Source of the DNA: Frankia casuarinae
Lineage (GTDB): Bacteria > Actinomycetota > Actinomycetes > Frankiales > Frankiaceae
Assembly (NCBI RefSeq): GCF_000013345.1
Contig: NC_007777.1
Coordinates: 2,542,001-2,606,000 of the forward strand
Direction of reading: 5' to 3'
DNA length: 64,000 bases
The notes under the pieces were generated by a model. It had not been told where the DNA came from and did no database searches. It saw only the letters and a list, made by a program, of their open reading frames with translations. The translations under genes and the position numbers were made by a program. This document shows positions 10,404-63,304 of this stretch, piece after piece (positions within the stretch are counted from its first letter, which is position 1; every line of letters begins with the position of its first letter).

Positions 10404-10542
10404 AGCGTCCTTTCTACCCGCCGCGAGACGGTGGTTCTACCTGGCGCGAGGTCCTGACAGTGGCCCGCCGCCGCGGACCCCTGGATCGGGTGGAGGCGGT
10501 TCCGAGGGCATGTCCGGCACGGGCCTGGCGTCGTACCGGTCC

Positions 10543-10556
10543 GGGACGAACAGCCC
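10543..10556. promoter_or_regulatory. DevR/DosR-box-like motif before the SHOCT-like gene
   Basis: The 14-mer gggacgaacagccc lies 77 bases upstream of the ATG at 10633. An almost identical 14-mer occurs upstream of the paralogous gene at 58772. The pattern GGGAC-N4-GCCC resembles DevR/DosR response-regulator boxes of actinomycetes; this assignment is inference. Confidence 0.4.
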
Positions 10557-10632
10557 TCGTCCCGTCGGCCGCGCCGGCCGAAGGTAGAGGTACGGCCCGC
10601 CGTAGGAGGCCGGGACGAGGGAGGAGGAGATC

Positions 10633-10938
10633 ATGATGATGGTCTGGGGTGGGTACAACTGGGGTTGGGGTAGTTGGCTGCTGATGACGTTCAGCATGGT
10701 CGTGGTCTGGGGGCTGCTCATCGGGGCGCTGATCGCCCTGCTGCGCGCCGGTCTCGACCGGCGATCGGGGACGTTGGCCGGACGGCCTGTCAACGGGTCG
10801 GCCCAGCGGATCCTGGCTGAGGGCTACGCCCACAGTGACCTCGACAAGGGCCGCGGTGACCTCGGCGAGGAGGGGTACCCTCACCCGGGCGCGCCGCGGG
10901 ACCGGCGCAACCCGACCGGTCTCGCCAAGGTCGGTTGA
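10633..10938 (+). CDS. Small membrane protein, SHOCT-type paralogue with decayed C-terminus
   Basis: The 101-residue protein starts after GAGGAGGAG with MMMVWGGYNWGWGSWLL and one transmembrane helix (about residues 14-38, LLMTFSMVVVWGLLIGALIALL). It is paralogous to the protein at 58772-59116, which has the same Trp-rich start, helix and arginine. In that paralogue the C-terminus is a SHOCT motif (ERILAERYARGEIDEAEYHRRL). Here the corresponding part reads QRILAEGYAHSDLDKGRGD and lacks the second half, so the SHOCT domain is degenerate. It stands alone, without the psp genes of the other copy. Confidence 0.7.
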   Translation: MMMVWGGYNWGWGSWLLMTFSMVVVWGLLIGALIALLRAGLDRRSGTLAGRPVNGSAQRILAEGYAHSDLDKGRGDLGEEGYPHPGAPRDRRNPTGLAKVG

Positions 10939-43152: not shown

Positions 43153-44568
43153 TCAGGCCGTCGCCGGCGTCGATCTGCCGGCGGAAGCCCCCCGCCGGGG
43201 CAGAGCGTCCGCGGCGCCTGCGGGGGTGGCTGGTCTGCGTCGTGCGAGATCGGGTTCTTGACGGCGGTTGCCGGGGAGGATGCGGCGCTCCCAGCCGAAC
43301 AGGTAGAGCAGGACGGGGACGAAGGCGAACTTGAACAGTTCGAAACCCTGCGCGGAGTTGATGAGGGAAGCGACCAGGAAGGGTATGAAGAGGGCGGCCG
43401 ATGCCGGCCGTTTGACCAGCCGCAGCAGGACCAGGAAGATCGCTGCCAACAAAGCGTACGCGCCGATCCGACCGAAGTCGAACAGCCAGGTCACGTAGAG
43501 GGAGTTGGCCGCGTAGTTCCGGTCGTCACCGTATTTCTGGGCGAGATAGACGGAGTTCGAGTTCGGGCCGTAGCCGATGTTCGGATGACCGTTCTGCCGA
43601 GCCTCGGCCATGACGATCCGCGCGCTCGTGTAACGGCCGTTGGCGGTGGCGGGTGCCGTGTCATCGCCCAGCGCATCGAGTCCGGCGACGAGCCGGCCGA
43701 ACGCGACCGTCAGGCCGTTGTTGCTGGCCAGGTAGCCGGTCGGGTCGATCCGGCCGATCCCGACGACGGTCAGTGGCAGGACGGCGGCGAGGACGATCGT
43801 CCGGCGGCCCCGGGCAGCCACCGCTCGAATCCCGTTGAGATAACAGAAGATCAGGCTGATAGCGGCGGTGAGCAGGACCGTGGGTGATTTGGTCAGCAGA
43901 CCGGCGAGGACGACGAGTGCCAGGTTTCGCCACGACCTGCGCCGGACCGCCAGCAGGATCAGCACGGAGATGACCGGGGCCCAGGACGAGGGCTCGGCCA
44001 GCAGCCCGCGCAGCCGGGGCGTGCCGCCGGAGCCGGCGTCTACCCACACCGGCGCCGGTAGGACGGCGGCGACGGCATAGCCGGCCAAGGCGATCCACAC
44101 GCAGCCCAATGACATCCGCCAGAAGACGTGTTCGAGGTGGCGGCGATCGAAGAAGAATGCCGCAAAGACGGCGATCGAGGCGTAGAAGACGCCGAACCGC
44201 AGGCTTGCCGCGAGGTATTCGGCCGCGCCGTCCGGGCCCATCGGGCCCATCGGGCCCATCGGGCCCATCGGGGCAAGGGAGTAAAAGCACATGACCGCCG
44301 CGATGAAAAGTACGGCCGACAGGCTGCGCAGCGCGCTGTGGACGAAGGTGGCACCGTTGCGGCGCGAGACCAGGGAGAGCACCGCGAGAAAGGAATAGAG
44401 AAAAACCTGGATCTTTGTGGTCGGGATGCCCACCCTGGCCGTTGGGGAGACCGGAACGGTGCAGACCAGATAACAGCCGACGAACACCCAGGTCGCCAGC
44501 CGGGCGGCCGGCCCGATCAGCTCGTTCTGCTGCGTCTGCTCCGCGGTTTCCGGGGCGGTTTCCCGCAT
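43153..44568 (-). CDS. O-antigen polymerase/ligase-like membrane protein
   Basis: The protein has 471 residues from ATG 44568 and about ten hydrophobic segments, among them WVFVGCYLVCTVPV, TFVHSALRSLSAVLFIAAVM, FGVFYASIAVFAAFFF and GAYALLAAIFLVLLRLV. A long outer loop with VDAGSGGTPRLRGLLAEPS and GYGPNSNSVYLAQKYG fits Wzy/WaaL-type proteins. They assemble surface polysaccharide. Its loop contains a (GPM)n repeat encoded by four 9-bp units (44234-44269). The upstream frame to 44706 is open but has no family similarity. The gene stands without other polysaccharide genes. Confidence 0.75.
   Translation of the reverse strand: MRETAPETAEQTQQNELIGPAARLATWVFVGCYLVCTVPVSPTARVGIPTTKIQVFLYSFLAVLSLVSRRNGATFVHSALRSLSAVLFIAAVMCFYSLAPMGPMGPMGPMGPDGAAEYLAASLRFGVFYASIAVFAAFFFDRRHLEHVFWRMSLGCVWIALAGYAVAAVLPAPVWVDAGSGGTPRLRGLLAEPSSWAPVISVLILLAVRRRSWRNLALVVLAGLLTKSPTVLLTAAISLIFCYLNGIRAVAARGRRTIVLAAVLPLTVVGIGRIDPTGYLASNNGLTVAFGRLVAGLDALGDDTAPATANGRYTSARIVMAEARQNGHPNIGYGPNSNSVYLAQKYGDDRNYAANSLYVTWLFDFGRIGAYALLAAIFLVLLRLVKRPASAALFIPFLVASLINSAQGFELFKFAFVPVLLYLFGWERRILPGNRRQEPDLARRRPATPAGAADALPRRGASAGRSTPATA
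44234..44269. repeat. 9-bp tandem repeat (gggcccatc x4) inside the polymerase gene
   Basis: Four perfect units add GPM tripeptides to a loop of the membrane protein without a frame change. Confidence 0.95.
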
Positions 44569-58197: not shown

Positions 58198-58331
58198 CGT
58201 GTCCGGTAGTTTGCCGGAAGCGTGCGGCACGCCGCGAGAAAGGCGGCGACCGTGGGTTGTGAGGCGGACCGTGGGTTGTGAGGCGGACCGTGGGACCCGC
58301 GCGCGAGCCACCGGCTGGATAGCCACGGGTC

Positions 58332-58560
58332 GTGGCTCTGTTCTGTCTGCTGCACGGAGCCTGGCACGACGCCACGTGCTGGGAGCCCCTCGGAGCGCAA
58401 CTGCGGGCGCGGGGACATCGGGTGGTGGCACCGGATCTGCCGTTGCACAACCCGGCCACGACGTACGAGGAACGCATCCGCCCGGCGCTCGCCGCCCTCG
58501 ATGTGGCCATCGTGGCCGCCGGACCCGGGGCGCTCGCGGTACGCCTCTGCCCGCGGCCTG
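58332..58560 (+). pseudogene. N-terminal fragment of an alpha/beta hydrolase gene
   Basis: The frame encodes VALFCLLHGAWHDATCWEPL, RGHRVVAPDLPLHNPATTYE and ERIRPALAAL, the oxyanion strand and first loop of an EstA/MenH-like hydrolase. The nucleophile elbow (GHSMGS) is missing, and the frame runs into unrelated sequence. The interval before the SHOCT gene thus holds a degraded gene. Confidence 0.65.
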
Positions 58561-58665
58561 TGCCCCGCGGCCCAGTTCGCCCGGGACGGGTCAGACCATC
58601 GCCGGTCGTGTGGACGGCGGCGCCAGGGGCATTCCCCCAGCACAGGCCGGTCGTCGGCCAGGTCC

Positions 58666-58679
58666 GGGACGAACGGCCC
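58666..58679. promoter_or_regulatory. DevR/DosR-box-like motif before the SHOCT-PspA operon
   Basis: The 14-mer gggacgaacggccc lies 93 bases upstream of the SHOCT start (58772). It has one difference from the motif at 10543-10556, and the surrounding gtccgggacgaac and ccctcgt bases match too. Confidence 0.45.
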
Positions 58680-58771
58680 TCGTTCCATCGCCCCTCGGAA
58701 CGAAGGTCGAGGAGCGGCAGGCCGCCAATGATATCGAACCGCCGAGGGTATCGAGATCGAAGGAGATCACG

Positions 58772-59116
58772 ATGATGATCTGGGATGGGCACACCTGGGG
58801 CTGGGGCGGCTGGCTGCTGATGTCGTTCAGCATGGTCGTCTTCTGGGGGCTGGTGATCGGGGTACTGGTTGCTCTCCTGCGCGCGGGCCGCGGCGGCGGG
58901 CCGGGTACGTCGGCCGAACCGCCCGGAGTGGAACGGCCCGGTACCGAACGGCCCGGTACCGAACGGCCCGGTACCGAACGGCCCGGCGAGCGGTCGGCCG
59001 AGCGGATCCTCGCCGAGCGTTACGCCCGCGGTGAGATCGATGAGGCGGAGTACCACCGCCGCCTGGACGTGTTGCGTGAACGGCCCGGCCCGACGGATCT
59101 CACCAGGGCTGGCTGA
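58772..59116 (+). CDS. SHOCT-domain small membrane protein, first gene of the psp operon
   Basis: The protein has 114 residues, starting after AAGGAG. It has a Trp-rich start (MMIWDGHTWGWGGWLL), one transmembrane helix (SFSMVVFWGLVIGVLVALL), a linker of RPGTE repeats (15-bp DNA repeats at 58931-58975) and a C-terminal SHOCT motif (ERILAERYARGEIDEAEYHR). SHOCT motifs are short oligomerisation segments often joined to membrane anchors. It lies 60 bases upstream of pspA and may recruit Psp proteins to the membrane (inference). Confidence 0.85.
   Translation: MMIWDGHTWGWGGWLLMSFSMVVFWGLVIGVLVALLRAGRGGGPGTSAEPPGVERPGTERPGTERPGTERPGERSAERILAERYARGEIDEAEYHRRLDVLRERPGPTDLTRAG
58931..58975. repeat. 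15-bp tandem repeat gaacggcccggtacc x3
   Basis: Three perfect units encode ERPGT repeats in the linker of the SHOCT protein; a partial fourth follows. Confidence 0.95.
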
Positions 59117-59176
59117 CCGTCGGCTGACCGGCGAGATCGGAGAGGGACCGACGGGATCGGGGGAGGGAAGGCGTCG

Positions 59177-59932
59177 ATGAGCCTGAGCAGGCGGCTGGCG
59201 TTGGTGTTCCGGGCCAAGGCCAGCAGGATGTTGGACCGCGCCGAGGATCCGCGTGAGGTTCTCGACTATTCCTACGCTCGGCAGCTCGAGCTGCTGGCGC
59301 AGGTCCGCCGCGGGGTCGCGGACGTCGCTACCAGCCGGAAGCGGCTGGAGCTCCAGGTCGAACAGCTACGGGCGGCCGCCGAGCGGCTGTCCGGACAGGC
59401 CCGCCAAGCGGTCGCCGCGGGCCGCGACGACCTGGCCAGGGAGGCCCTCGGTCGCCGGGCCGGGGTGGCCGCGCAGTTGGAGGATCTGCGGGAGCAGCAT
59501 GCGTCGCTGCGAGCGGAGGAGGACCGGTTGACGCTGGCGGCGCGGCGGCTGGCGGCCCAGCTCGAGGCGTTCCGGACCAGGAAGGAGACCGTGAAGGCGA
59601 CGTACACCGCGGCGGAGGCGCAGACGAAGATCGGCGAGGCGCTGGCGGGGGTCTCCGAGGAGATGGGCGACGTCGGCCTGGCAATCCAGCGGGCCGAGGA
59701 CAGGACCGAGCAGATGCAGGCCAGGGCCGGCGCGATCGACGAACTACTCGCCTCCGGCGCCTTGGAGACGGCGGCCGGTGGCCCGCGCGGCGACATCCAG
59801 GCCGAGCTGGACCGGCTGTCCGCGACCGCCGACATCGATCAGGATCTGGCCGAGATCAAAAGCGCCATGCCCGCGCGGGCGATTGGCGGCCGCCCGCCGG
59901 CCGACGCCGCTCGACCGGAGGAGCGGCCGTGA
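59177..59932 (+). CDS. pspA: PspA/IM30 (ESCRT-III-like) membrane stress protein
   Basis: The 251-residue coiled-coil protein assembles on damaged membranes and stabilises them. LSRRLALVFRAKASRMLDRA is the amphipathic N-terminal helix with following ED, and DPREVLDYSYARQLELL the second segment. Long coiled coils cover about residues 30-200 (ERLSGQARQAVAAGRDDLAR, EALAGVSEEMGDVGLAIQRA). The start is ATG 59177, after the motif gggaggga. The gene overlaps pspAA by 4 bases (GTGA), so they are coupled. Confidence 0.93.
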   Translation: MSLSRRLALVFRAKASRMLDRAEDPREVLDYSYARQLELLAQVRRGVADVATSRKRLELQVEQLRAAAERLSGQARQAVAAGRDDLAREALGRRAGVAAQLEDLREQHASLRAEEDRLTLAARRLAAQLEAFRTRKETVKATYTAAEAQTKIGEALAGVSEEMGDVGLAIQRAEDRTEQMQARAGAIDELLASGALETAAGGPRGDIQAELDRLSATADIDQDLAEIKSAMPARAIGGRPPADAARPEERP

Positions 59933-60210
59933 TCGTGCGCATTCTGGGTGAGGGCCAGTTCGACCTGCCCGCAACCGACCTGGAGGCCCTCAACGAGCTG
60001 GATGACGTGCTGCTGACGGCCGTCGAGGCCGGTGACGAGCCGGCATTCCAGGAAGCCTTGACGAGGCTGCTCGAACGGGTCCGGACCCGCGGCCGCGCGG
60101 TGCCGGCGGACCAGCTGGAGCCATCGGAGCTGGTGCTGCCGCGCGCCGACACCGGGCTGGCGGAGGTCCGCGGACTGCTCGGCGACGAAGGCCTGATTCC
60201 CGGCTCCTGA
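59929..60210 (+). CDS. pspAA: PspA-associated protein PspAA
   Basis: The 93-residue protein begins MIVRILGEGQFDLPATDLEA and continues with LNELDDVLLTAVEAGDEPAF. LERVRTRGRAVPADQL and SELVLPRADTGLAEVRGLL follow. This matches PspAA-domain proteins, which occur next to pspA in actinobacteria and other groups. It is likely to modulate PspA assembly. GTG 59929 overlaps the pspA stop. Confidence 0.9.
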   Translation: MIVRILGEGQFDLPATDLEALNELDDVLLTAVEAGDEPAFQEALTRLLERVRTRGRAVPADQLEPSELVLPRADTGLAEVRGLLGDEGLIPGS

Positions 60211-60259
60211 TTTCTGGCGGCCGAGCCCCGACCGACGAGGTGACGATGGTGAGGTGACG

Positions 60260-61234
60260 ATGGTGATGACGCGTGTGCCGCGGCGGTTCGCCCTGGACCG
60301 GGGACTGTCGGCCCGGATGGTGCTGACCGTCTTCCTGCTCGGGTTGGTCTACGTCGCCTTCATCGCCGTCCTGATCGCCGTCGGAGTGTCACCGGTCCTG
60401 GTCGTCGCGATCGCCGGCGGGCTGCTCGCCGCCCAGTACTGGTTCTCGGACCGCATCGCGCTGTACGCGACCGGTGGGCGCATCGTCAGCCCGGCGCAGG
60501 AGCCGCGGCTGCACGGCGTCGTGGATCGGCTCTGCGCGCTGTCCGACCTACCGAAGCCCGTGGTGGCGGTCGCGGACACCGACCTGCCGAACGCGTTCGC
60601 CACCGGCCGGACCCCGAAACGCGCCGTCGTCTGCGTGACGACCGGGCTGCTGCGCAGGCTGGAGGTCGACGAGCTGGAGGGGGTGCTGTCCCACGAGCTG
60701 TCCCACGTCGCGCACCGGGACGTGGCCGTCATGACCGTCGCGTCGTTTCTCGGGGTGCTCGCCGGTCTGGTCACCCGATTCGGTCTCTACTCCGGGATGG
60801 CCGGCGGCTTCGGCCGGTCCGACGGCGGTGACGGCGGTGACGGCGGTGACGATGACGAGGACAGCGGCGCCCTCGTCGTGCTCGTCGTTGTGGTCGTCTC
60901 CGCCGCCGTCTACGCGCTGTCGTTCCTGCTGACCAGGGCGCTGTCGCGGTACCGGGAGCTCGCCGCCGACCGGTCCGGGGCGATCCTCACCGGCCAGCCG
61001 GCCGCGCTCGCCGCCGCGCTCACCAAGGTCACCGGCGAGATCTCCCGGATCCCGACCCGCGACCTGCGGGCCGCCGAACCGTTCAACGCCTTCTTCTTCG
61101 CTCCCGCGCTGGCGAACGGCGTCAGCCTGTCCTCGTTGTTCTCGACCCATCCGCCGCTGGATGCCCGCCTGGCCCAGCTTGCCCGGCTGGCCGCCCAGTT
61201 CGGTGAGCCCGCCCAGTTCGGTGAGCCCGGGTAG
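60260..61234 (+). CDS. htpX: HtpX-type zinc metalloprotease (family M48)
   Basis: The protein has 324 residues from ATG 60260 (upstream GTG 60254 is also possible). It has N-terminal hydrophobic helices (MVLTVFLLGLVYVAFIAVLI, VSPVLVVAIAGGLLAAQYWF) and the zinc motif LSHELSHVAHRD. After the motif come further helices (VVLVVVVVSAAVYALSFLL) and the third ligand in YRELAADRSGAIL. It removes damaged membrane proteins. An acidic Gly/Asp loop is encoded by ggtgacggc repeats. The C-terminal QFGEP repeats are encoded by 18-bp repeats that also hold the stop. Confidence 0.93.
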   Translation: MVMTRVPRRFALDRGLSARMVLTVFLLGLVYVAFIAVLIAVGVSPVLVVAIAGGLLAAQYWFSDRIALYATGGRIVSPAQEPRLHGVVDRLCALSDLPKPVVAVADTDLPNAFATGRTPKRAVVCVTTGLLRRLEVDELEGVLSHELSHVAHRDVAVMTVASFLGVLAGLVTRFGLYSGMAGGFGRSDGGDGGDGGDDDEDSGALVVLVVVVVSAAVYALSFLLTRALSRYRELAADRSGAILTGQPAALAAALTKVTGEISRIPTRDLRAAEPFNAFFFAPALANGVSLSSLFSTHPPLDARLAQLARLAAQFGEPAQFGEPG

Positions 61235-61268
61235 TTCGGTGACCCGGGTAGTTCGGTGACCCGGGTAG
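61196..61268. repeat. 18/17-bp tandem repeats over the htpX stop codon
   Basis: Units cagttcggtgagcccgcc and variants, then tagttcggtgacccggg twice, run from the last htpX codons (QFGEP twice) through the stop into the gap before pspAB. Confidence 0.9.
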
Positions 61269-61283
61269 AAAGCAGGCCGGATC

Positions 61284-61880
61284 ATGCGGATCCTCGACGT
61301 GCTTCTCGGCCGGACCCGGCCCGTCCCGCCGGACCTCGACCGGCTGTTCACGCTCCCAGCCGCCGCCGTCATCCTGCAGGCCGCCAGCTCATGGCGACCG
61401 ACCGGGGTCGGAGCGGTCTGTGTCAAACCCGCGTCAGGCGGCGCGTTCACCGGGGTAGCGCAGGAGATCGACCGGCTGCTGAGCATGGACGGCGGCCGGT
61501 ACGAGCGGCGCACGGACAGCTTCGGGTACAGCTGGCTGCTGCGACGGACCGGCGAGCAGGACCTCGCTGGCCTGGTCACCGACCTGCACGCGGCGAATGC
61601 CACGGTGCGCGACGCCGGCTTCGGCCCGGCACTGCTGTGCACCGTCGTCGGGTTCACCGACGGCAGCAGGCCGATGGGGCTGATCTACCTCTACAAACGC
61701 GGCACCTGGTACCCGTTCGTGCCGGCCGGTGACCAGCGTCGGGACAATCCGGCCGAGCTGGAGGTACGGGAGATGCTGGCGGGTGAGCTCCCGATCGAAC
61801 CGGACCTGTCCCGTTGGTTTCCCCTGTGGGGAGCGCCCGGCATCGACGCGCCGGGTCGCGACCCCGACACGCACGGGTGA
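61284..61880 (+). CDS. pspAB: PspA-associated protein PspAB
   Basis: The 198-residue protein has MRILDVLLGRTRPVPPDLDR, LFTLPAAAVILQAAS and YERRTDSFGYSWLLRR. It continues with LVTDLHAANATVRDAGFGPA and LLCTVVGFTDGSRPMGLIYL, and ends in IEPDLSRWFPLWGAP. This corresponds to PspAB, found with PspA, PspAA and HtpX in actinomycetes. The biochemical role is not known. The operon seems to end here, as the next gene is convergent. Confidence 0.88.
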   Translation: MRILDVLLGRTRPVPPDLDRLFTLPAAAVILQAASSWRPTGVGAVCVKPASGGAFTGVAQEIDRLLSMDGGRYERRTDSFGYSWLLRRTGEQDLAGLVTDLHAANATVRDAGFGPALLCTVVGFTDGSRPMGLIYLYKRGTWYPFVPAGDQRRDNPAELEVREMLAGELPIEPDLSRWFPLWGAPGIDAPGRDPDTHG

Positions 61881-61901
61881 CCTCGTCGGCTTTTCGTCCG
61901 G

Positions 61902-62828
61902 TCAGGATCGGTGCGCATAGGCTGCCTGCGCGTGTTCAAAGCGGTGCTCGGTGGTGTGGGCGGTGTCGGCGGCGGCGGCGGCCGTGGCCAGGACGAGCGC
62001 GGCGAGGGCAACGGCCAGGGCGGGGCGTGGTTTGGGAGGCGGGTCCAGCAGCGCCCGCGCCCGGTGGGTGAGGTCGGTGTGCACGGCGCCGAGTGCCGAG
62101 GTCGGAGTGGTCGGCATGCCGGTGCGGGCGAGGCCGGCGCGGGCCAAGGCCCGGGCGACCACAGCGCGATCTTCGGTGACAGCGGCGGCGTCTTCGTCGG
62201 CCCAGCGTTCGACGGCGAGGCGCACGGCGGCGGCGGGTGTCCGCAGCAGCGGGTTGGCGGCGGCGGCGAGGTCGGCGAGCTGGGTGTAGGCGTGGTGGCG
62301 GTGATGCAGGTGGGAGCGTTCATGGGCGAGTAGCACGCGGCGTTCGTCGGCGGGCAGCGCGCGCAGCATGGCGGTGGACACCACGATCCGGCCGGTCAGT
62401 CCGGGCAGCGTGTAGGCGTCGGGGTGGTCGTCCTCGACGATGACGAGGCCGGTAGGCGACGGTCCGAGCCGCCGGCAGGTGAGTTCCGCGGCGGCGAGGT
62501 CCTGGCCGAGGGCGGCGGCGCGCCGGGCGGCGGCGGCGAGCAGCCCGACGACGACGGCGGCCGGCACCAGCCCGGCCGCGGCGGGTAGCGGGTCGTGGCC
62601 GCGGATCATGGTGGCCGACCAGTGCCCGACCGCGGTGAGCAGGGGCAGCTGGGCGAGCAGGGTGAAGGCGGCGACGGCCAGGACGAATCCGGTGGCCAAC
62701 GCGGTGACCAGACAGGCCAGGGTCAGCAGCCGGGTGGCGGCGGCGGGCGGCAACCGCCGGCCGAGCCAGCCGCCGCTGACGGCCAGCAGCAGGTTCGTGG
62801 CCAACGGGATCAGCGCGACGGCCGTCAT
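61902..62828 (-). CDS. M56-family (BlaR1-like) membrane metalloprotease
   Basis: The protein has 308 residues. Hydrophobic helices at both ends (VALIPLATNLLLAVSGGWL, LALAVALAALVLATAAAAA) enclose the cytoplasmic protease with the zinc motif LLAHERSHLHHRH. The acidic third ligand is in ERWADEDAAAV. In the BlaR1/MecR1 family the protease inactivates the BlaI repressor when a ligand is sensed. There is no C-terminal penicillin-binding domain, so the signal is unknown. It overlaps blaI by 4 bases (ATGA). Confidence 0.9.
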   Translation of the reverse strand: MTAVALIPLATNLLLAVSGGWLGRRLPPAAATRLLTLACLVTALATGFVLAVAAFTLLAQLPLLTAVGHWSATMIRGHDPLPAAAGLVPAAVVVGLLAAAARRAAALGQDLAAAELTCRRLGPSPTGLVIVEDDHPDAYTLPGLTGRIVVSTAMLRALPADERRVLLAHERSHLHHRHHAYTQLADLAAAANPLLRTPAAAVRLAVERWADEDAAAVTEDRAVVARALARAGLARTGMPTTPTSALGAVHTDLTHRARALLDPPPKPRPALAVALAALVLATAAAAADTAHTTEHRFEHAQAAYAHRS

Positions 62829-63226
62829 AGCCCCTGCCCGCCGTCCGTCTCTGACCGCGGGTGGTGGCTGGCGAGGATGTCGGCGAGGAGTTGTTCGTCT
62901 TCGGGACGCAGATCCGCGACGAAGCGGGCCAGGGCTTCAGCCCGGTTGGCGCCAGCGCCGAGCAGGCGGGTCATCTGGCGGGCGGTGAGTGCGGCGTCGA
63001 GGGTTTCCGGTTCGGCGGCCAGCGTGTAGGCGTAGGAGCGGCCGGCGGGCTGCCGGGTGAGTGCGCCCTTGTCGTGCAGCCGGGCCAGCGTGGTCATCAC
63101 GGTGGTGTAGGCCAGCGGCTCGCCGAGTTCGGCGAGCGTCTCGGTCGGGGTGAGCGGCCGGCCGGCCGCCGCGATCGCGGCGAGCACCTCTCGTTCGAGC
63201 GCTCCCGGCTCCCGCCGCTTCGCCAT
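62825..63226 (-). CDS. blaI: BlaI/MecI-family repressor
   Basis: The 133-residue protein from ATG 63226 reads MAKRREPGALEREVLAAIAA, then LTPTETLAELGEPLAYTTVM and TTLARLHDKGALTRQPAGRS. This is the winged HTH of BlaI with the recognition helix at AYTTVMTTL. The C-terminal helical part serves dimerisation. It is cleaved by the coupled M56 protease in known systems. Two TACTA-type inverted repeats lie in the divergent region between this gene and the ABC transporter. Confidence 0.93.
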   Translation of the reverse strand: MAKRREPGALEREVLAAIAAAGRPLTPTETLAELGEPLAYTTVMTTLARLHDKGALTRQPAGRSYAYTLAAEPETLDAALTARQMTRLLGAGANRAEALARFVADLRPEDEQLLADILASHHPRSETDGGQGL

Positions 63227-63240
63227 CCGTTGCCCTCCTC

Positions 63241-63292
63241 GCGGCTGTCGCTCGCGGCTGTCGCTCGCGGCTGTCGCTCGCGGCTGTCGCTT
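63241..63292. repeat. 13-bp tandem repeat gcggctgtcgctc x4
   Basis: Four units (last with one change) lie directly upstream of blaI, within its leader. Confidence 0.95.
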
Positions 63293-63304
63293 GCGACCAC
63301 TCAC

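Follow-up and report, generated by a model that had tools for sequence, protein, structure and literature searches.

A DevR/OsdR-type box upstream of a SHOCT-PspA-PspAA-HtpX-PspAB gene cluster in Frankia casuarinae

Behind a 16-nt box of the DevR/OsdR type, five genes follow one another on the plus strand of the Frankia casuarinae genome, and the list of open reading frames together with Pfam matches assigns them to a TM-SHOCT protein, PspA, PspAA, an HtpX-type protease and PspAB. The best explanation of this arrangement, and a likely one judging from sequence comparison, is that a DevR-type regulator controls the SHOCT gene and that this control reaches the Psp operon by read-through. Positions refer to the window, the whole 64,000-nucleotide stretch analysed (NC_007777.1, 2,542,001 to 2,606,000).

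The gene cluster and its upstream box

58665-58680, plus strand: DevR/OsdR-type box CGGGACGAACGGCCCT, at -107 to -92 of the SHOCT start, 17.4 bits
58760-58765, plus strand: ribosome-binding-like AAGGAG 5' of the SHOCT start, read in the sequence
58772-59116, plus strand: TM-SHOCT protein, 114 aa (Pfam SHOCT PF09851, 1.7e-8)
59177-59932, plus strand: PspA/IM30 family protein, 251 aa (PspA_IM30 PF04012, 7.8e-26)
59929-60210, plus strand: PspAA, 93 aa (PF22743, 1.7e-35)
60254-61234, plus strand: HtpX-type M48 metalloprotease, 326 aa (Peptidase_M48 PF01435, 4.7e-32)
61284-61880, plus strand: PspAB, 198 aa (PF22742, 3.7e-67)

The first-pass annotation had described a unidirectional five-gene cluster with overlaps or short gaps, and the reading frames and Pfam matches bear this out. 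Successive intergenic distances are 60, -4, 43 and 49 nt, the PspA and PspAA frames overlapping by 4 nt. A consensus scan of 58200-62000 found no terminator between the five genes; its sole terminator-like site (58321-58337) lies 5' of the box. The module order PspA-PspAA-HtpX-PspAB is present here on one strand, and among 99 other loci picked for PspAB, PspA was found in 80, PspAA in 71 and HtpX in 97. The HtpX assignment is backed by a score of 456.5 bits against NF002669 (cut-off 341) and by a HELSH motif visible in the translation. PspAB matches were absent from the 12 other Frankia genomes searched, which makes a footprint of the SHOCT-Psp arrangement within Frankia impossible. The predicted PspAB structure (mean pLDDT 77; four sequences) gave no Foldseek match at E 0.001 or better, so its fold gives no function.

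The SHOCT domain scores 34.4 bits against PF09851, above the cut-off of 27. The TM-SHOCT model (mean pLDDT 75) contains a long helix at residues 11-40, taken as the TM helix, and C-terminal helices at 73-86 and 91-103, and the linker contains a TERPG repeat. Recurrent gene association and these predicted helices suggest that the protein may anchor PspA or its partners at the membrane. Weak partial SHOCT matches occur in five other Frankia genomes (E 1.6e-4 to 9.1e-4), and an additional DNA match lies at genome position 3921179.

The box was scored with a matrix of 26 published Streptomyces coelicolor OsdR sites, which themselves score 11.4-18.8 bits. At 17.4 bits it resembles these sites, lies 5' of the first gene and is the highest-scoring match in the window; of 60 simulated windows of the same length, one scored at least as high. 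The site announced by the first-pass annotation is thus present, but its sequence was misread: the box reads GGGAC-N4-GGCCC, and GGGAC-N4-GCCC, taken letter for letter, is not found in this DNA.

Recurrence of the box before SHOCT relatives and Psp operons

Upstream footprinting, proposed as a check in the first-pass annotation, shows that the box recurs before SHOCT relatives. A match of at least 9 bits within 250 nt upstream was found at 33 of 80 TM-SHOCT loci, the best 80 of 507, compared with 146 of 4215 control windows from the same loci. Because the ranking of the 507 used similarity to a Streptomyces sequence, the 80 named loci lean to this genus, as does the matrix. Within these best 80, boxes were more frequent in Streptomyces (20 of 29) than in others (13 of 51), 47 loci had no box of at least 9 bits, and upstream regions of other genes carried one in 29 of 306 cases. 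Position is restricted: 30 of the 33 boxes in this best-80 set lie at -83 to -154, and the distribution peaks with 31 boxes at -200 to -101, no other 100-nt bin out to 1.5 kb holding more than four. The reversed matrix placed two matches in the peak bin, and 200 column-permuted palindromic matrices gave a mean of 2.6 loci and a maximum of 30, none reaching 33. An independent set from a class search, readable at 24 of 29 loci, had a box of at least 9 bits within 400 nt at eight of the 24 (L146, L147, L150, L153, L154, L155, L166 and L170). USP genes lie near 28 and a strong DevR homologue (E < 1e-50) near five of the best 80 of 507 SHOCT loci. From the share of boxed loci in this set and their narrow range of positions, the SHOCT gene is probably a recurrent DevR/OsdR target.

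Conservation of the box therefore goes with the SHOCT gene family; it does not extend to Psp operons in general, which mostly lack a box except in Nocardia. A box was found upstream of PspA in six of 80 Psp operons, with PspA starts estimated by length, and in none of the 17 HtpX-PspAB loci in which PspA was not found. At the 33 recognised PspA starts (among 100 sequences, window included) the count was 3, equal to that of a scrambled motif (3 of 33). On these counts, DevR control of Psp operons in general is rejected outside Nocardia. Lowering the cut-off to 8 bits gave 14 of 80 Psp operons against 78 of 1257, a result discounted because at least five of the matches derive from just two sequences that recur in related loci. 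In Nocardia, 16 matches were obtained, 15 were read (L330 was left out) and 11 had a recognised PspA start (not L326-L329). In ten of these 11 operons a related site precedes pspA at -74 to -83, as judged by a ten-position core defined after the sites had been seen, compared with 1 of 11 for a scrambled core; the OsdR-site matrix gives 9 bits or more in only 4 of 11.

These results bear on how far the regulation would extend. The box could serve SHOCT alone, with the psp genes using their own envelope-stress promoter within SHOCT or the 60-nt gap. In keeping with this, a majority of the Psp operons surveyed in other actinobacteria have neither SHOCT nor box and must use other promoters, and L043 and L044, the closest relatives in the family, have no box of at least 9 bits before PspA. 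We nevertheless consider such a split unlikely: no terminator was found in the 60-nt gap, SHOCT recurs beside the same genes, adjoining the Psp module in two Nocardia loci and following it in four Rhodococcus plasmids (PspA-PspAA-HtpX-PspAB-SHOCT), and Nocardia psp operons bear a related site of their own. The four Rhodococcus plasmid loci had no box.

Candidate regulators and a proposed route from low oxygen to Psp

The first-pass annotation had made its case conditional on the genome encoding a DevR-type regulator, and there are three such response regulators, each with a KTVKNYV helix (the reversed-pattern control gave 0), as well as a DosT/DevS-like kinase. Against solved structures, one of the regulators matches DevR (3c3w) at 2.3e-68, the next match being VraR at 4.3e-43. 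The kinase (L214:4815-6599, minus strand) has a GAF domain matching that of DosT (2vzw) at 4.9e-50, and the alignment includes the histidine of an HPPM motif, a putative haem ligand. One devR gene, at 3.85 Mb, has upstream boxes of 14.1 bits at -75 and 10.9 bits at -176, and a 15.9-bit box lies just beyond the kinase gene. The other two devR genes have no box in the flanking DNA scanned, and the USP matches of this genome (L203-L210) have no upstream box of at least 9 bits; three of these loci have matrix matches within the USP frame. The local regulon consequently looks small. USP boxes are typical of the DevR/OsdR regulon rather than strictly defining, so their absence weakens the regulon claim and does not remove it.

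Under DevR-type control with read-through, a DosS/DosT-type GAF kinase would sense low oxygen (or NO/CO), and phosphorylated DevR would bind the box at 58665-58680, turning on the SHOCT gene. Given the 60-nt gap after SHOCT and the lack of a terminator in the scan, PspA-PspAA-HtpX-PspAB would be co-transcribed with it. The SHOCT protein, presumably inserted through a single helix, may retain PspA or its partners at the membrane, and in oxygen-limited, low-energy growth PspA would stabilise the membrane and HtpX would clear it. DevR binding, the signal, co-transcription and anchoring are all inferred. The earlier suggestion that the box ties a membrane-repair module to hypoxia or redox signals gains support, at the level of sequence, from the recurrence of the box and the presence of regulators and kinase.

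Another regulator recognising a similar palindrome, for example a different NarL-type protein, might bind instead, and the signal would then be something other than oxygen or NO. Some SHOCT and Psp genes are found on plasmids near heavy-metal transport genes, so the stress signal may differ, and the three DevR-type regulators need not share one signal. This seems rather improbable, however, as the matrix was built from OsdR sites, such boxes also precede a devR in this genome, and the USP genes that neighbour 28 of the best 80 of 507 SHOCT loci are known DevR-type targets in the passages of PMC5069765.

The window also contains a second, related site:

10542-10557, plus strand: second DevR/OsdR-type box CGGGACGAACAGCCCT, 13.45 bits, the window's second best
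10633-10938, plus strand: SHOCT paralogue with a similar TM part and a degraded SHOCT part

No psp gene was found downstream of the paralogue among the listed reading frames. The two boxes are identical at 15 of 16 positions and the remaining aligned non-coding DNA at 85 of 127. The paralogue's score is not rare alone, 0.65 being expected per simulated 64-kb window, nor does its conservation count as an independent line of evidence. An inverted repeat beside the first box (about 58678-58706) was dropped as a candidate, being absent from the paralogue. The analysis of column conservation in the box left aside L316 and L323, which nearly duplicate other sequences, and used an alignment fixed on the final seven bases, so that only the other nine columns are informative. 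The loose pattern GGGACN4GNCCC occurs at chance level, four times in the window against 3.83 expected and 161 times genome-wide against 173 for the reversed pattern, and two other generic patterns show no enrichment genome-wide over reversed controls (47 vs 100; 146 vs 319); these counts at or below control say nothing on the specific 16-mer. That the box is a chance GC-rich palindrome, with a paralogue copy owed merely to DNA duplication, would suit the loose-motif counts and the unremarkable second score, but is hardly credible for a site whose score was reached in just one simulated window and whose distance and score range match boxes before relatives in other genera.

Relation to known systems and significance

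The same four core genes form a system described in the passages of PMC11237479 (mSystems 2024), in which PspA-PspAA, a metallopeptidase and PspAB are occasionally joined by a SHOCT-like gene, and membrane anchoring of proteins by SHOCT-like domains is proposed. The Frankia locus differs from that system as there described in having SHOCT first, behind a DevR/OsdR-type box; the main text of that paper nowhere uses the terms DevR, hypoxia, dormancy or universal stress. It differs as well, in gene set and regulator, from the mycobacterial psp operon clgR-pspA-pspM-pspN given in those passages. The box has three differences from the 16-nt OsdR consensus AGGGCCGATCGGCCCT of S. coelicolor (mSystems 2016, PMC5069765) and likewise three differing positions from the predicted SCO5979 site of the OsdR regulon, as these appear in that source. 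PspA does not occur in its main text, and a search of its accessible parts for SHOCT found none, though some genes in its tables are hypothetical and SHOCT may be there unnamed. The likeness to the Mycobacterium tuberculosis DevR/DosR system consists in the DevR-type regulators and DosT/DevS-type kinase of the Frankia genome.

PspA has already been connected physiologically with low oxygen in the literature, since a passage of a review (PMC10699116) reports that the mycobacterial PspA orthologue Rv2744c affects survival in hypoxia-induced dormancy; DosR control of Rv2744c is not stated in the passages of that source. Among the passages considered from papers naming both PspA and DosR, none puts PspA under DosR, and in one "PspA" denotes another protein. 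No link of SHOCT to DosR/DevR, of PspA to OsdR, or of the SHOCT domain to Streptomyces hypoxia was found in the literature searched, with most subscription papers outside the search.

A broader proposal is tentative, possible rather than probable: TM-SHOCT would be a core, unnamed member of the DevR/OsdR dormancy regulon and a membrane anchor that switches on PspA-type repair at low oxygen, the psp operons having been captured more than once, in Nocardia through their own site and in Frankia through their place behind SHOCT. For a small membrane protein that is widespread but of unknown role, the analysis provides a candidate regulator together with a likely stress condition, and a membrane-repair system would be tied to the actinobacterial dormancy switch. 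Membrane upkeep as oxygen runs out becomes testable, for example in nitrogen-fixing Frankia, and the dormancy regulon of some lineages is suggested to include envelope repair.

The SHOCT-psp operon and its upstream site

The five membrane-stress genes that the first-pass annotation placed on one strand with overlaps or short gaps are all plus-strand open reading frames recognised by Pfam (window G000:C1:2542001-2606000 of a one-contig genome of 5,433,628 bases).

Genes of the operon (basis: open reading frame and Pfam)
58772-59116, + strand, SHOCT
59177-59932, + strand, PspA
59929-60210, + strand, PspAA
60254-61234, + strand, HtpX
61284-61880, + strand, PspAB

Successive intergenic distances from SHOCT to PspAB are 60, -4, 43 and 49 nt, and the single terminator-like site in a scan of 58200-62000 lies ahead of the candidate box. 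The closest counterparts of PspA, HtpX and PspAB among the loci compared belong to two members of the family, so that the operon appears native and not a recent acquisition. PspAA is matched in 4 of 35 family genomes including this one (three exceed the cut-off). The other 12 genomes of the Frankia genus yield no PspAB match and, in five, weak and partial SHOCT matches.

The SHOCT protein has one long helix predicted near the N-terminus and two short ones near the C-terminus, a modelled layout that fits the membrane anchoring proposed for SHOCT-like domains in PMC11237479. Its linker carries a TERPG repeat, encoded by about three head-to-tail 15-bp repeats at 58925-58990, each of which is weakly box-like (8.84 bits), probably by chance. 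An open reading frame spanning the box (58332-58775, +) partially matches alpha/beta-hydrolases (residues 6-85; 25.3 bits, under the 26.3 cut-off) and appears to be the remains of a truncated gene ahead of SHOCT. Convergent with the operon, 61902-63304 (-) encodes a BlaI/BlaR1-type pair, made up of a BlaI-like repressor (Penicillinase_R) and a protein resembling M48/M56 peptidases.

The site at 58666 reads GGGACGAACGGCCC. The pattern GGGAC-N4-GCCC given for it in the first-pass annotation is one base short. Loose forms of the motif are not enriched in the window (4 vs 3.83 expected) or genome-wide against reversed patterns (161 vs 173; 47 vs 100; 146 vs 319). PMC5069765 gives the Streptomyces coelicolor OsdR consensus as AGGGCCGATCGGCCCT and tabulates predicted sites including CGGGACCTTCGGCCCT; the window site has three mismatches to each. 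On a symmetric matrix made from 26 S. coelicolor OsdR sites of that table, which themselves score 11.4-18.8 bits, the window box reaches 17.4 bits, the top score of the 64 kb and one attained in 1 of 60 windows simulated with a second-order Markov model. The runner-up (13.45 bits at 10542, expected 0.65 times per window in such simulations) precedes a SHOCT paralogue at 10633-10938 whose SHOCT part is degraded. When the two loci are aligned, the boxes agree at 15 of 16 bases and the other non-coding DNA at 85 of 127; the two boxes arose by duplication and are therefore not independent. Elsewhere, 44233-44266 holds three overlapping copies of CGGGCCCATCGGGCCC in 9-base steps, and a box-like palindrome scoring 15.2 bits, GGGGCCGGCCGGCCCC (L211:2875), precedes by about 180 nt a long open reading frame immediately beyond the end of the window.

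The box ahead of TM-SHOCT genes elsewhere

A profile search of named actinobacterial TM-SHOCT loci, ranked by likeness to a Streptomyces sequence, supplied the best 80 of at least 507 loci, to which all counts in this section refer. A box of at least 9 bits lies within 250 nt upstream of the SHOCT gene in 33 of the 80, compared with 146 of 4215 control windows from the same loci; upstream regions of other genes there have one in 29 of 306 cases. Streptomyces contributes 20 of 29 and the remaining genera 13 of 51. The first-pass annotation proposed footprinting upstream of SHOCT genes, and the box does recur before SHOCT relatives; 47 of the 80 show no box of at least 9 bits. The matrix was built on Streptomyces, and divergent sites may escape it.

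Thirty of the 33 boxes sit at -83 to -154. When all boxes are counted, the -200 to -101 bin contains 31 and no other bin of 100 nt out to 1.5 kb contains more than four; the window box, at -107, lies inside this peak. The reversed matrix places two in the same bin, and 200 column-permuted palindromic matrices gave a mean of 2.6 loci (maximum 30). A cruder count with a ten-position core finds 43 of the 80, and its scrambled version 15. Universal stress protein genes occur within 8 kb in 28 of the 80, and five of the loci have a strong DevR homologue (E < 1e-50) in that range.

Psp operons and their SHOCT partners

Of the 393 genomes in the class, 169 contain PspAB (PF22742). At 99 PspAB loci, PspA accompanies it in 80, PspAA in 71 and HtpX in 97, mostly in the order PspA-PspAA-HtpX-PspAB; HtpX-PspAB stands without PspA in 17, of which 16 belong to a genus we take to be Streptomyces. 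The SHOCT profile found no SHOCT gene at any of the 99, some being cut by contig ends. A box before PspA is not clearly commoner than in controls (6/80 vs 48/1257; 3/33 vs 3/33 for recognised PspA starts only), and none precedes HtpX in the 17 PspA-less loci.

In the genus of G360, presumed to be Nocardia since its member G446 agrees with locus L268 of Nocardia nova in both sequence and position, PspAA occurs in 13 of 148 genomes. At L268 the SHOCT gene has an 11.8-bit box, and a psp operon some 5.6 kb distant has one of 13.3 bits ahead of PspA. Among 11 Nocardia loci with a recognised PspA start, some of them near-copies of one another, ten carry, at -74 to -83, a match to 9 or 10 positions of the ten-position core, which was defined with these sites already known; the exception, L320, matches at 8. 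The scrambled core reaches 9 in one of the 11, and the OsdR matrix scores only four PspA sites at 9 bits or more. Across nine of the loci, the nine non-anchored box columns have a mean identity of 0.69 vs 0.50 and 0.60 in the flanks, a modest excess. SHOCT is divergent from pspA in L319, where the 172-bp gap holds one site of 8.4 bits, and in L320, where the gap is 464 bp and SHOCT has a separate box of 11.1 bits at a distance of about 89 nt.

PspAB is also matched in 18 plasmid records, seven of which were inspected. Four Rhodococcus plasmids (L331-L333, L337), three linear and the fourth circular and typed conjugative, encode PspA-PspAA-HtpX-PspAB followed by SHOCT on the same strand, SHOCT being last; boxes are absent within 300 nt of PspA. 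Box-like sites further upstream of PspA on two Streptomyces plasmids (L335, L336; e.g. -156, -182) are not counted as evidence because the scrambled core also reaches 9 there; the psp operon of these two adjoins a general stress protein gene, with heavy-metal ATPases near, which suggests a metal-stress link. On the seventh plasmid HtpX-PspAB stands by itself. SHOCT and the Psp module thus meet in three arrangements, not always with a box, which speaks for a functional connection between the proteins and shows that they can be controlled by means other than the box.

Regulators and a proposed route of control

The genome also holds the DevR-type regulator that the first-pass annotation called for: the recognition-helix pattern has three exact matches genome-wide (reversed control, 0), all within response-regulator-like open reading frames. 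The regulator encoded at 2.637 Mb, roughly 31 kb beyond the window, matches DevR (3c3w) at E 2.3e-68, VraR being next at 4.3e-43; the remaining two were assessed by eye. Two boxes precede the devR gene at 3.853 Mb, one of 14.1 bits at -75 and one of 10.9 bits at -176, and some 3 kb from this gene L214:4815-6599(-) encodes a 594-aa GAF kinase with a 15.9-bit box directly beyond the 3' end of its gene. The kinase's GAF domain has a DosT match at 4.9e-50 in which the HPPM histidine, the haem ligand in DosS/DosT, is aligned. No 9-bit box was found in the upstream flank examined of the other two devR genes, nor upstream of the universal stress protein genes of this genome. Two of the three devR genes (L172, L173) adjoin a gene whose product looks, by eye, phosphotransferase/ATP-binding-like and so resembles Rv2004c, a dormancy gene of mycobacteria.

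In the probable scheme, a DevS/DosT-type kinase would signal to a DevR-type regulator, which would act at the candidate box at 58665 and promote SHOCT transcription, and read-through from SHOCT would extend to the psp operon; we infer every step beyond the box itself.

The Psp module with an occasional SHOCT-like partner (PMC11237479), DevR/OsdR boxes (PMC5069765) and an influence of mycobacterial PspA on survival in hypoxia-induced dormancy (PMC10699116) are already known. A search of the available literature found no paper joining SHOCT with DosR, SHOCT with DevR, or PspA with OsdR, and the accessible parts of literature mentioning both DosR and PspA contained no control of PspA by DosR. What appears to be new is the recurrent box ahead of TM-SHOCT genes, together with the location of psp operons downstream of sites of this kind in Frankia and, with less certainty, in Nocardia.
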